Of a DNA stretch of 7,572 bases, positions 181 through 4,874 are shown one piece after another; within the stretch, counting starts at the first letter, position 1, and each line of letters begins with the position of its first letter. The notes under the pieces were generated by a model, which saw nothing but the letters and a program-made list of their open reading frames with translations, had not been told where the DNA came from and did no database searches. Source of the stretch: Thermococci archaeon. Lineage in GTDB: Archaea; Hadarchaeota; B88-G9. The position numbers were made by a program, and so were the translations under genes. The DNA lies in contig QMUK01000063.1 in the NCBI GenBank assembly GCA_003660555.1, positions 1 to 7,572 on the forward strand, given 5' to 3'.

Positions 181-750
181 TTGGAGAAGGCCAAGCTCTT
201 GGAATTGCTAGAAAAGGACGAAGAATTCAGGTTGGCTGTGGCTGGCCTCATAGGATACAGGGAAATATTGGAGAGACTAGAGGAACACGACAGGAAGTTT
301 GAGGAGATAATGCAAGAAATAAAGAGAATAAACGAGAGACTAGAGGAACTATACGGGATACTAGCAGAACATAACAAGAGATTGGGCAGGGTAGAGGAAA
401 CGGTCGGAACTCTGGTTGAAACGTATCTCTTGGACAGATTCTCCACAGAACTAAGGGAAATTGGACTTGACTTAGACGAAATAAGAGGAGTTGAAATAGA
501 AGGAATGGAAATAGATGGGATTTTCAGGGACGAGGAACTAATTGCAGTGAAAGTAAAGAGTACTCTTAGGAAGAGAGATCTTCTTTCCTTCATGGAGAAA
601 ATTGAGCTTCTCAGGGAGAAATTCCCGAAGAGGAAGGTAAATGGAACAATTCTGTGTATGAGGGCAGATTCTTCCGCAATTGACTTGGCTGATAGGGAGG
701 AAATCAAAGTACTCTCCGTGATAAAGAGGTTTTCCCCATCTCGAGGTTAG
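181..750 (+). CDS. Coiled-coil protein with degenerate PD-(D/E)XK nuclease-like C-terminal domain
   Basis: A 189-aa protein. Residues 1-25 include 'LLEKDEEFRLAVAGLIG', a signature I associate with a multi-copy family in hyperthermophilic archaea, related to the DUF3782-type coiled-coil proteins. Residues about 28-85 are a charged heptad-like coiled coil (ERLEEHDRKFEEIMQEIKRI). Residues about 86-180 resemble the restriction-endonuclease fold: E-I-D112-G-I-F, a short loop, then I-A-V-K124-V-K126-S, the position where the family normally has (V)ExK(S). Here the glutamate is lysine (AAA at 550-552), so metal-dependent cleavage is probably lost; a DNA-binding or structural role is possible. The TTG start is forced: an in-frame TAG lies at 160-162, TTG at 181 is the first start codon after it, and GGAAGGAAGGG precedes it at 163-173. 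No substrate or partner is evident. It stands alone, with the secreted-protein gene following after its own promoter. Confidence 0.75.
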   Translation: MEKAKLLELLEKDEEFRLAVAGLIGYREILERLEEHDRKFEEIMQEIKRINERLEELYGILAEHNKRLGRVEETVGTLVETYLLDRFSTELREIGLDLDEIRGVEIEGMEIDGIFRDEELIAVKVKSTLRKRDLLSFMEKIELLREKFPKRKVNGTILCMRADSSAIDLADREEIKVLSVIKRFSPSRG

Positions 751-780: not shown

Positions 781-854
781 CCAAAGCTTACTTGGAATAC
801 ACCCTACAATATCATAGTATGGTATTCAGAGGAAGCTAAGATGGAATTTCTCGA

Positions 855-868
855 AAAATATATATATC
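855..868 (+). promoter_or_regulatory. TATA box for the secreted-protein gene
   Basis: An A-rich run followed by alternating TATATATAT, centred near 862, is the strongest TATA-like element in the window. An archaeal transcription start about 26 bp downstream would be near 888, exactly where the leader hairpin begins and about 28-37 bases before the likely start codons at 916 or 925. This position argues against translation from the in-frame ATG at 841, which lies upstream of the box. Confidence 0.6.
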
Positions 869-909: not shown

Positions 910-915
910 GCGGAG

Positions 916-3546
916 GTGTTGAGCTTGAGTAAGAGGAGAAGGACTTGGTTAGTGGTGCTAGGAGTAAGTTTGCTGGTTGTTTTGTCCCAAAGTCCGCAAA
1001 TGAGTAAAGCAGATGTTTTAGTAGATGAGGACGGGACATTGACTAGCTACTGTGATTACAAGGACTATGAGTTCAGCCTAGTAAATTGCCAAAGCCCACA
1101 GTTGACCATAGAGCTCTCTTGGAACGGTAATGCAGACATAGATCTACTGCTCTTCGCACCAGACGGTACCTACATGGTGGGAGAGGACATAACCAACGGA
1201 TATAATGGAAGACCATGTCTCTCTGGAATAGTCCCAGGCAATGACGGAATTCTCTGCAATGGTAAAGGAAATTGTTCCCCAGTAAATGGGATAACATCAG
1301 CCAGTTACACAGGATACACTAGTAAGCCAGAGAGAATAACTATACAGTTCGCGAGCAATTGGGACCAAGTTGGGAGCCCCACCCTAAAAGGAAAGTGGAA
1401 GGTGAGGGTGGTTAGGTTCTCTCCTCAAAGCGGAGACACGGACTTCCACGTTAAGGTCACAGTGAGTGGATGTGGAGGAGAGGCAGGGGGTTTCTCAGTA
1501 ACTCCTAATGCAATAGTAGCGAACGTCTATCCCTCAGGAGATTGTTCAGGTTGCCAGTGTCCAATGAGTGCTACAACCCACACTCTGAGAATAAATGCCT
1601 CTGGAGTAGCAGGGAATAGGACCTCGATGAAAATGAAACTAATGGATGAGGATATGAGCTGGTGGGTTTCTAATGTCCCATACAACGATGTGATAGAAAT
1701 AGGAACCATACCAGAAGGAGAAGACGTAATAGACTTCAACATGCAAATATGTAACCCAGGAAAGAAGTTCGAGATAACCCAGTTGGCTATGAAGACTCCC
1801 CAAATAACTTCTATGGCATCTGCATCGATACAAGAAGTACTAATGGAGGAGGAAATAAGGATAATAGGAGCCATCGCTGCAGCTTGCGAACCAGGAGTAA
1901 ATAACTGTCCTACAGTATCTGACAACTGCATTGCAAATCCAGCTGAGATATGTTTGGATCCAGTACACGGAAGAACTTTTGATACTGATGCACCCAACAT
2001 AATCTATTGGGGACAAATAGATATAGATGAGGATGGACTGGACTCAGACGATCCTGAGTTCGTTATAATACCATCCGAGGACGGAGTAGCTGGTAGATTT
2101 TCCTATAACCTAGTTATCTTTGACACAGCGACACCATACGGAACTTTCGTAATTGACCCAACCTTGGGAGGAGCACTAACAGACACAGCAATAGCCACTG
2201 TGGACATAGGAGATGGCATAGGAAGGACAATACAGTGGAATAACAAGTACTATCAGCTGATAGACATAGAGGAGTACAGAGGGATACTAGCCCTAGACGA
2301 CGACTCAGAAATGGCTGAGTTTATGATACCTACCCCGGGAGACACGGTGGAATTGTGGCTAGCATGGGAGGATTCAGCACCCCCGAATCCCCTGACAACT
2401 GAGATACTGAGCGGAATATATGCACTCGACCCGTATGTATCAGAGTACGGCTTAGATGCGATACCTACGGATACCGGTTACAAGTACGGAGTGAATTCTA
2501 CTACGAATACGGAGTGGCTAGTTGCAGACATGATGCCGACCCCAGGATTCGACGTAGTTTACCTACACAGGATGTTAGATGACGACTTCTGGGACGATCC
2601 AGTGAACTACATAACTCCTATCGGATATAATCCTAATTTCCAAATGGTACTCAGGGACTGGGACAATGATGGCAGCCTAGATCTATGGGGCTCTTTTGCT
2701 CAGGATCTGAGTTACATAATACCGGGAGCTCAACTCTATGAGATAGACCCCAATGGAGACTTCGTGAGATATGCCACTAGCACGCATACGTTCATATTAC
2801 TAGAGAACATAGCTGGAGTAGTCCCGTATGCAGGACCAATGGTGCAACCTCAGATAATGTATGCTATGTACAACGACGTGGAGTATCTCCTAGTAGACTG
2901 GGACGGAGACGGCGTTTTCGAACCAGAGGATAGAGTATTCTGGCATGACAGAGCAGATAATGATTTCAGAGACGACCAATATATGTACATACTAGCAGTG
3001 GACCAAGATGGAGAATGGTTCTATGGTCTACAGAAGTGTTGTATGTTCAGCTGCGCTAATGGTTCAATATCTCCAGGAAAGGGATGTTTCCCAGAGTTCT
3101 GTGGAGTAGACGGAGACCCGTTCTTCCCCACAGTAGAGAACATAACCGGAATAGACGTAGATACGACCATGAGATATGGTTTCGGACTAATAGACTTTAA
3201 CAGAGACTGGGAGTACGACTACGAGTTCCTGATAACTGACTCAGACGGAGACGGGAAGGCAGACTCCATTAGGTTACACCCAGTGGACGACGACGACTTC
3301 ACGGATGACCCAGTATACCACGTCGGAGACACCTTCGAGGCAATGGGCCTAGAATGGGAGATAGTCAAGCTAGACTGGTGTCCACACTGTGTGGTAATAG
3401 AGCCAAAGGACAAAGAGATAGAGGGATACGTAGTAATATGGCTAGACGACGATGAAAACAACGAGCCAGATAACCAAGAGCAACAGGTGAAAGTCAAAGT
3501 GAAAATAAGGTTTGTGAAGGACTACCCAGGAAGCTCGGGAAGATAG
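916..3546 (+). CDS. Large secreted, Cys-rich, Asp-rich protein with PPC-like domain and putative calcium-binding repeats
   Basis: About 873-876 residues, no close family recognised. The N-terminus is a textbook signal peptide: SKRRR, a hydrophobic core (TWLVVLGVSLLVVL), and a possible cleavage site after S-K-A (about 1009). Bases 1090-1480 resemble a PPC-type beta-sandwich ('ELSWNGNADIDLLLFAPDG', then 'GKWKVRVVRF'). Bases 1490-1850 look like a second beta domain. From 2017 on come acidic D-x-D-x-D-G loops at 2020-2040, 2656-2673, 2896-2913 and 3238-3255, and three copies of a DDDFxDDPVxY-like motif (2575-2610, 2953-2988, 3283-3318), suggesting bound calcium. About 21 cysteines, including SGDCSGCQC and WCPHC, and several N-x-S/T sites fit an extracellular, disulfide-stabilised protein. 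No C-terminal membrane anchor is visible, so it may be secreted or an S-layer or envelope component. Start choice: GTG 916 (GGAGG at 903-907) and TTG 925 (GGAGG at 912-916) have identical 8-base spacing. ATG 841 precedes the TATA box and would put about 25 residues before the signal peptide. Confidence 0.8.
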   Translation: MLSLSKRRRTWLVVLGVSLLVVLSQSPQMSKADVLVDEDGTLTSYCDYKDYEFSLVNCQSPQLTIELSWNGNADIDLLLFAPDGTYMVGEDITNGYNGRPCLSGIVPGNDGILCNGKGNCSPVNGITSASYTGYTSKPERITIQFASNWDQVGSPTLKGKWKVRVVRFSPQSGDTDFHVKVTVSGCGGEAGGFSVTPNAIVANVYPSGDCSGCQCPMSATTHTLRINASGVAGNRTSMKMKLMDEDMSWWVSNVPYNDVIEIGTIPEGEDVIDFNMQICNPGKKFEITQLAMKTPQITSMASASIQEVLMEEEIRIIGAIAAACEPGVNNCPTVSDNCIANPAEICLDPVHGRTFDTDAPNIIYWGQIDIDEDGLDSDDPEFVIIPSEDGVAGRFSYNLVIFDTATPYGTFVIDPTLGGALTDTAIATVDIGDGIGRTIQWNNKYYQLIDIEEYRGILALDDDSEMAEFMIPTPGDTVELWLAWEDSAPPNPLTTEILSGIYALDPYVSEYGLDAIPTDTGYKYGVNSTTNTEWLVADMMPTPGFDVVYLHRMLDDDFWDDPVNYITPIGYNPNFQMVLRDWDNDGSLDLWGSFAQDLSYIIPGAQLYEIDPNGDFVRYATSTHTFILLENIAGVVPYAGPMVQPQIMYAMYNDVEYLLVDWDGDGVFEPEDRVFWHDRADNDFRDDQYMYILAVDQDGEWFYGLQKCCMFSCANGSISPGKGCFPEFCGVDGDPFFPTVENITGIDVDTTMRYGFGLIDFNRDWEYDYEFLITDSDGDGKADSIRLHPVDDDDFTDDPVYHVGDTFEAMGLEWEIVKLDWCPHCVVIEPKDKEIEGYVVIWLDDDENNEPDNQEQQVKVKVKIRFVKDYPGSSGR
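2575..3318 (+). repeat. Three diverged protein repeats with DDDFxDDPVxY-like core inside the secreted protein
   Basis: The cores are LDDDFWDDPVNY (2575-2610), ADNDFRDDQYMY (2953-2988) and VDDDDFTDDPVY (3283-3318). The second and third lie just downstream of D-x-D-G-D-G loops (2896-2913 and 3238-3255), while a similar D-x-D-N-D-G loop (2656-2673) follows the first. The spacing of about 330-380 bases suggests modules of roughly 110-126 residues. The repeats are diverged at DNA level, so they are old duplications and not recent slippage. Calcium binding is inferred from the aspartate pattern. Confidence 0.55.
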
Positions 3547-3582
3547 CTCTTTCTTCCCCGACCTAACTATTTTTTGTTTTTT
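3535..3582 (+). terminator. Hairpin plus T-tract terminator of the secreted-protein gene
   Basis: TCGGGAAGA (3535-3543) pairs with TCTTCCCCGA (3552-3561) in a 9-bp stem with one bulged C and an 8-base loop. Two runs of six T separated by a G follow at 3570-3582. The stop codon TAG (3544-3546) sits in the loop. Archaeal RNA polymerase stops at T-rich tracts, with or without a hairpin; the combination makes this the clearest terminator in the window. Confidence 0.7.
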
Positions 3583-3701: not shown

Positions 3702-4874
3702 GTGTTGAACACATTAAGAACGAGCCTCGTAGTAGTCTTATTTTCTGGGATGGCCTTCTCCCTAATTAGGCCAGCATTAGCATTCAAACTTAGAATGGAC
3801 CTAGGATCAACAGCCCTGGAAGTTACATCCCTCACTACAGGATTCATGTTGGCTAGAGCAGTATCATCCCCGATTGGGGGACTAATTGGGGACAAGTACC
3901 CGAGATTGAGAAATCTAATAGCCTCAACGCTACTATTTCCAACATCCATAGTGTCCCTCCTTTTGTATATGTCCCAGGATTCAAGGATGATAATTTCTCT
4001 TAACTTCCTCCATGGTATGTTTTCTGGAATCTTTTGGCCCACTGTGCAAGTGATAGTTGGATTGACATCTCCCAGAGAAAAAAGAGGTACCTTTCTGGGT
4101 TTATACTTCACAGTCGCTGGAGTAGGTTCGAGCATAGGGTACTCTCTTTATGGAGCTTTACCCTTGAGTAACCAAGAGTTCATTCTGCTAAGTTCAATCC
4201 TTTACTTTATATCTGCGCTTTTTTCAATCTTGTTTCTCTCTAATAGAAATAGAGAAAATAACCCAAGTAGAACACTTAACGAAATTCCAGAGAATGAGAT
4301 AATTAATCCACATTTAATTCTAATTTCAGCATTCCTTTTAGGCGGACTAATGGGTCTAAGCGGTGAGTATCTCTACATCTTCCTGAGAGAAGTTCATAAT
4401 CTCTCGAAGGCAGAACTTGGATATTTACTCACGGCTTCATCAATAGTCGGAGTAGTTAGTGGAATTTCCTCCGGATTTCTATCAGATTTACTGGGAATAA
4501 GGAGATCACTCTTTTTATTAGCAGTGATGGCGTCAGTGAGTCTCTTCCTCATATCTACTCCTTATAGGGTAATAGTAATCCCCTCAGTCTTAGCCATGTT
4601 CTTCTCTGCTTGGGGATCTATGCCACTCACAAGGAACGTCTCTGCATTCAAAAGAGCTAGTGGAACTTTAGTGGGACTTTCCAATACATCTTCCAATCTA
4701 GGTTCTGCTATATTCCCATTGACAGCGGGACACTTTTACGATTATTTCGGAAGCGAGGAAGTGATACTTGGCCTGAGAGGAGCAACAATCTCTTTCCTAA
4801 TTTTATCGATACTACTGTTATTGCTATCTATTCTCCTAGTTAAGGGTATTAGGAATATATCTCCTTCTCACTAG
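3702..4874 (+). CDS. Major facilitator superfamily (MFS) transporter, 12 predicted membrane helices
   Basis: A 389-390-aa membrane protein, the usual length for a 12-helix MFS carrier. Hydrophobic segments fall at roughly residues 8-28, 43-63, 71-90, 96-120, 130-154, 160-180, 203-228, 239-260, 268-286, 291-310, 321-349 and 361-381, with a hydrophilic central loop (about 181-202, NRNRENNPSRTLNE) dividing two halves. Motif A is clear between helices 2 and 3 (GLIGDKYPRLRN, about 60-71) and partly repeated between helices 8 and 9 (GFLSDLLGIRRS). The substrate cannot be read from sequence; drug/metabolite efflux or sugar/organic-acid uptake are all open. An in-frame TAG at 3684-3686 limits the start to GTG 3702 or TTG 3705. 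GGAGG at 3693-3697 gives 4- or 7-base spacing, so TTG 3705 is slightly preferred. The 3' end overlaps serS tail to tail by 26 bp. Codons look somewhat more AT-rich than those of the upstream gene, a possible sign of separate origin. Confidence 0.85.
   Translation: MLNTLRTSLVVVLFSGMAFSLIRPALAFKLRMDLGSTALEVTSLTTGFMLARAVSSPIGGLIGDKYPRLRNLIASTLLFPTSIVSLLLYMSQDSRMIISLNFLHGMFSGIFWPTVQVIVGLTSPREKRGTFLGLYFTVAGVGSSIGYSLYGALPLSNQEFILLSSILYFISALFSILFLSNRNRENNPSRTLNEIPENEIINPHLILISAFLLGGLMGLSGEYLYIFLREVHNLSKAELGYLLTASSIVGVVSGISSGFLSDLLGIRRSLFLLAVMASVSLFLISTPYRVIVIPSVLAMFFSAWGSMPLTRNVSAFKRASGTLVGLSNTSSNLGSAIFPLTAGHFYDYFGSEEVILGLRGATISFLILSILLLLLSILLVKGIRNISPSH

Follow-up and report, generated by a model that had tools for sequence, protein, structure and literature searches.

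Gene organization and N-terminal domains

The window analysed here, a stretch of 7,572 bases, is the whole of contig C77 in a 1.3 Mb archaeal genome and encodes a PDDEXK_10 protein, a modular protein, an MFS transporter, a seryl-tRNA synthetase, an ASCH-domain protein, and a TrkA-like protein. The PDDEXK_10 nuclease-superfamily protein (window 181-750), which has a coiled-coil-like N-terminal part, is encoded upstream of the modular-protein gene, and the MFS transporter gene adjoining the latter (window 3702-4874) had no match at E 1e-20 in the phylum's other 27 genomes. The reading frame of the modular protein is open from 841, ends in a stop codon at 3544-3546, and represents one intact gene. 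Among its candidate start codons (TTG 925, GTG 916, and TTG 919), we favor TTG 925 because GGAGG lies at 912-916. A first-pass annotation had given this gene its own promoter and terminator, and sequence reading points to candidate elements of both kinds, with a TATA-like box at about 852-867 and a T-rich end at about 3570-3582; a terminator scan, which was designed for hairpins, found none.

about 852..867, + strand: candidate TATA/BRE-like promoter element (sequence reading)
912..916, + strand: Shine-Dalgarno-like GGAGG, 8 nt upstream of TTG 925 (sequence reading)
925..3546, + strand: gene for the secreted modular protein, 873 aa, stop included
925..1011, + strand: Sec-type signal peptide (residues 1-29) with probable cleavage behind SKA, +1 residue not Cys (hydropathy and sequence reading)
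1012..1479, + strand: PPC / subtilase-type beta jelly roll, residues 30-185, containing an internal loop rich in Cys (archaeal subtilase PPC profile)
1480..1974, + strand: Cys-rich middle region, residues 186-350, which matches nothing
3421..3543, + strand: C-terminal tail, residues 833-873, without an anchor (hydropathy)
3570..3582, + strand: T-rich archaeal terminator-like tract (sequence reading)

The protein read from 925 contains 95 D, 48 E, and 51 K+R and has a pI of about 4.05, and its 21 Cys agree with the earlier count of about 21. Hydropathy across the full protein revealed a single hydrophobic stretch, the N-terminal Sec-type signal ending in SKA, so that both the signal peptide and the lack of a membrane anchor proposed in the first-pass annotation hold. 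The PPC-like domain proposed there was also recovered: with a PPC profile of archaeal subtilases, residues 30-185 scored 25.3 bits, which none of 5,000 shuffles reached (maximum 10.2). The same residues gave 13.7 bits (E 0.12) against PF04151, under the Pfam gathering score of 25.9, and a weak match to the PDB protease 1wmd (E 0.047). On these profile comparisons, we assign the N-terminal part to the subtilase-type PPC jelly rolls (PF04151; KP-43 type), with which it shares the core strands and a D-x-D-L-x-L-x-x-P-x-G motif. In subtilases, however, the PPC domain follows the protease, whereas here it is N-terminal and carries a Cys-rich insertion. No Peptidase_S8 (PF00082) match was found anywhere on contig C77, and no protease gene on the contig adjoins the modular-protein gene.

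Searches with the full chain found no full-length relative among 61 relatives, 28 phylum genomes, a collection of genome contigs, viral contigs, plasmids, phages, the PDB, and PHROGs, and no Pfam or NCBIfam family matched it. In the 28 phylum genomes, the chain had no match with a meaningful E-value outside its source genome. The protein thus still belongs to no known full-length family, as had been supposed, and we know of no relative with its architecture.

Tandem repeat modules

The remainder of the protein contains three modules (m1, m2, and m3), each with an acidic loop, and possibly a fourth, degenerate one (m0).

2020..2037, + strand: first DxDxDG loop, DIDEDG, residues 366-371, outside the three cores
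2080..2304, + strand: m0, possible degenerate fourth module, residues 386-460, acidic loop mostly lost (register in a profile built without the window)
2404..2718, + strand: module m1, residues 494-598
2566..2604, + strand: m1 acidic loop HRMLDDDFWDDPV, residues 548-560
2656..2673, + strand: DWDNDG loop, residues 578-583
2809..3036, + strand: module m2, residues 629-704, shorter past the acidic loop
2896..2913, + strand: DWDGDG loop, residues 658-663
2944..2982, + strand: m2 acidic loop HDRADNDFRDDQY, residues 674-686
3109..3420, + strand: module m3, residues 729-832, predicted seven-strand all-beta (AF2), best single-module match
3238..3255, + strand: DSDGDG loop, residues 772-777
3277..3315, + strand: m3 acidic loop HPVDDDDFTDDPV, residues 785-797

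Four DxDxDG loops (at residues 366, 578, 658, and 772) and three [DN][DN][DN]F.DD cores (at residues 552, 678, and 789, spaced by 126 and 111 residues) were counted, matching the numbers and spacings first reported. Local alignment of m3 with m1 gave a z of 9.3 and with m2 a z of 7.0, and in each case none of 300 same-composition shuffles scored as high. The repeats m1-m3 are therefore real, and their common core reads ExLxxDxDGDGxxDxVxLHxxxDDDFxDDPV. DxDxDG and DDDF mark two distinct loops of one module and not a single motif; in m2 and m3 the former comes one strand before the acidic loop, and m1 reads DMMPTPGFD at this position, near the usual subtilase form. The DxDxDG loop at residue 366 sits just ahead of m0. 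At the end of m3, a WCPHC sequence (residues 818-822, window 3376-3390), absent from the aligned relatives, is a possible metal or disulfide site.

Proteins with Dx[DN]xDG calcium loops have been described (PMC3123361), and four copies of this linear motif are what the window protein shares with them. The suggested likeness to EF-hand or thrombospondin type 3 loops stands at this level but does not extend to the families themselves, since no EF-hand, thrombospondin type 3, or dockerin model fits the window protein (Pfam, E 1). Such loops also occur in beta-propellers of FG-GAP/VCBS repeats, and FG-GAP_3 did align with m1 (E 0.012; 16.7 bits, below the cut-off of 26.9). However, the other modules gave no such match, the repeats are spaced by 111-126 residues rather than about 60, and the relatives described below are single small domains, so we regard a propeller as very unlikely.

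When folded without an alignment, the mature chain reached a pLDDT of 34.2. AF2 with a 14-row alignment predicted seven strands for m3, at a pLDDT of 72.2 and a pTM of 0.65; this gain would fit a true family, but it partly reflects the shorter query. Fold searches with the m3 model, itself of middling confidence, gave a best Foldseek E of 1.1 and a best VIA Z of 3.5, and there was no convincing fold match in the PDB or among viral models.

Relatives of the modules

As a bare DNA pattern, D.DF.D[DE].V was no commoner than its reversed control. Two of its matches (L010 and L011), however, were archaeal subtilases with the motif between the catalytic Asp and His, and these were the source of the lead. 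A profile of the three repeats alone (A2) found only the window gene across 394 archaea, plus one antisense chance match (L004). For comparison with the modules, we gathered the inserts between the catalytic Asp and His of such subtilases, which we take to be the Thermococcales pyrolysin type from what is generally known of these proteases and from gene content. The three-module profile aligned with these inserts at an hhalign score of 32.8 (P 2.1e-5), compared to 20.5 for the best of 600 column shuffles. Single module-insert pairs gave z values of 4.9 (m3), 4.8 (m1), and 4.5 (m2), each the best among some 27 inserts per module, and none of 100 shuffles was as high in any of the three cases.

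We then combined the window modules and the subtilase inserts in one profile (A4). At E <=0.05, A4 matched in 54 of the 394 archaeal genomes, with some 20 expected by chance; at E <=1e-3, it matched in about 34, with <1 expected. The matches included subtilases and also protease-free proteins, among them pilin-like proteins (L151 and L153-L155), L150 and L158, and large surface proteins, and no Pfam or NCBIfam model covered the module in those that were scanned. The pilin-like proteins carry an N-terminal hydrophobic segment, HSLEAVIAIMILLSYS, and a single copy of the module; L151, the one of them that was scanned, had no Pfam or NCBIfam match. Since the protease-free loci were first fetched by a profile containing window rows, only their recovery by an HMM built from the inserts, without the window sequence, is independent, and this HMM recovered the protease-free pilin-like proteins at E 2e-7 to 7e-7.

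Against a family profile built from both groups without the window, the three-module profile scored 34.6 (hhalign, P 8.9e-6), and against the protease-free relatives alone it scored 31.1, where the best of 200 shuffles reached 15.5. With a window-free HMM, m3 scored 13.4 bits, which none of 1,000 shuffles reached, and m1, m2, and m0 aligned in register with it at low scores. Taken singly, m1 and m2 matched the family at an hhalign P of 0.013, and m0 was not significant. An early insert-only HMM scored the whole chain within the shuffle range, and with the window-free HMMs 24 to 319 of 5,000 shuffles reached the whole-protein score (24 of 5,000 in round 3). Support for the relationship therefore comes from m3 and the profile comparison rather than from every module individually.

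D-rich beta hairpins might merely resemble the subtilase insert by convergence, and column shuffles did score up to 20.5 from composition alone. Yet the observed scores were 32.8-34.6, and the match reaches past the acidic loop into the flanking strands, which makes convergence improbable. As judged from these profiles, m1-m3 are divergent copies of the Asp-His insert domain of pyrolysin-type subtilases, a domain also found in protease-free archaeal surface proteins. With the pyrolysin-type insert they share the leading Y-x-x-G, LVVD, and YDxVY strands, a loop ending in F-T-D-[DE], and the downstream VLxxIDxxG strand. Unlike the insert, the modules are protease-free, tandem, and have His for the first loop Asp, and m2 and m3 have an extra DxDGDG loop. 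The domain of the pilin-like and surface proteins (L150, L151, and L153-L159) has the same strands and loop, and its GDxxxxxGxxxxIxxIDxxG end also occurs in m3; these proteins differ in having mostly one clear copy each, other N-terminal parts, and Asp at loop position 1.

We found no entry for the domain in Pfam, NCBIfam, or the PDB, and no PDB chain matched the family profile. As the searched protein-family libraries lack such an entry, the protein represents a new combination built from a part that is known but has no name; to our knowledge, the domain was previously known only as an insert of pyrolysin-type proteases. The DDDFxDDPV core had been put forward as unrecognised. It is indeed unnamed in the libraries, but it has relatives in the subtilase insert and in archaeal surface proteins.

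Several large secreted subtilases are encoded in the genome (L049 on G000:C118, L050 on G000:C5, and L051 on G000:C69), and none of the genome's own subtilases matched the module by the family profile. In the C118 subtilase, the Asp-His insert includes a D-rich stretch of its own, YEYLFVDLDGDNKPD, which the family profile does not recognise. We had first suspected the module in this subtilase and in the genome's own S-layer protein, and rejected both as unsupported by the family profile.

These subtilases and the subtilase-associated character of both recognisable parts raise the alternative that the window protein derives from or works with a secreted subtilase (e.g., as an inhibitor, chaperone, or stabiliser), having kept the PPC domain and the insert but lost the protease. 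Against this, no protease gene adjoins it, the genome's own subtilases lack the module, and the modules are tandem with a common change absent from the relatives, and we consider this origin quite unlikely.

The acidic loop and its shared His

In 37 relatives, whose loops were collected with a pattern allowing D, N, E, or H at position 1, the acidic loop reads D-x-[DN]-x-D-x-[DN]-F-x-[DN]-[DE]. Position 1 was Asp in 36 of the 37 and Glu in the other, compared to His in m1, m2, and m3 (residues 548, 674, and 785); the window protein has nine His in total, so these account for three of them. Position 3, Asp or Asn in nearly all relatives, is Met, Arg, or Val in the window modules, and positions 5, 7, 8, 10, and 11 are kept in all three. 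The DDDFxDDPV core looked unfamiliar because it is a derived form of this common loop. With neither Asp nor Asn at these two loop positions (1 and 3), m1-m3 may have altered or lost metal binding.

Proposed role

The first-pass annotation had also proposed an S-layer protein, and like archaeal S-layer proteins (PF05123/PF05124, TIGR01564) the window protein is secreted and rich in aspartate loops. Those models, however, do not match it. The genome's canonical S-layer gene lies elsewhere (L065:1283-4318, on G000:C8) and encodes 1,012 aa matching PF05124 at E 2.4e-35 and TIGR01564 at E 5.3e-33. That S-layer protein has many DDDGDGxxDEDP loops, and its gene adjoins a truncated subtilase-like ORF at the contig edge. 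The label "S-layer protein" is unsupported because no S-layer model matches here and the canonical gene is elsewhere. A second lattice component, or even the main S-layer protein, would fit a secreted, acidic, modular product with its own candidate promoter and T-rich end, but with the canonical gene at another locus and neither an S-layer model match nor an anchor in the window protein, this seems unlikely.

We instead think that the window protein is probably a Sec-secreted, non-enzymatic structural protein of the envelope or extracellular matrix, composed of a PPC jelly roll, a Cys-rich middle, and tandem, putatively metal-binding modules of the insert type. After Sec export and signal cleavage, the N-terminal PPC jelly roll would fold, followed by a Cys-rich region probably held by disulfides and by the small all-beta pyrolysin-insert domain, repeated three or possibly four times in tandem. 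The acidic loop between strands in each copy would bind a divalent metal, most likely Ca2+, and the DxDGDG loop of m2 and m3 may bind one as well. Bound metal would lock the strands in place and so stabilise a protein placed in the archaeal envelope or extracellular matrix. Pyrolysin inserts reportedly add stability, as the title of a 2017 paper by Gao et al., cited in PMC12838322, has it, and by this analogy the modules would most likely be metal-stabilised structural units.

A more speculative reading, which we consider doubtful, is that this insert-type domain represents a widespread, so far undescribed extracellular unit of archaea, exchanged among proteases, pilin-like proteins, and surface proteins. 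In this lineage it would have been multiplied and its loops jointly changed from Asp to His at position 1, so as to bind a transition metal (such as zinc, manganese, or iron) in place of calcium, perhaps for envelope assembly or metal scavenging. Because all three tandem copies carry the same change to His, they offer a clear and cheap test of metal switching by such loops. Altogether, the relationship places a sequence left blank by annotation in a family, and hence supplies a fold and a testable role; about one in ten of the sampled archaeal genomes carries this domain, which proteases share with pilin-like and surface proteins.
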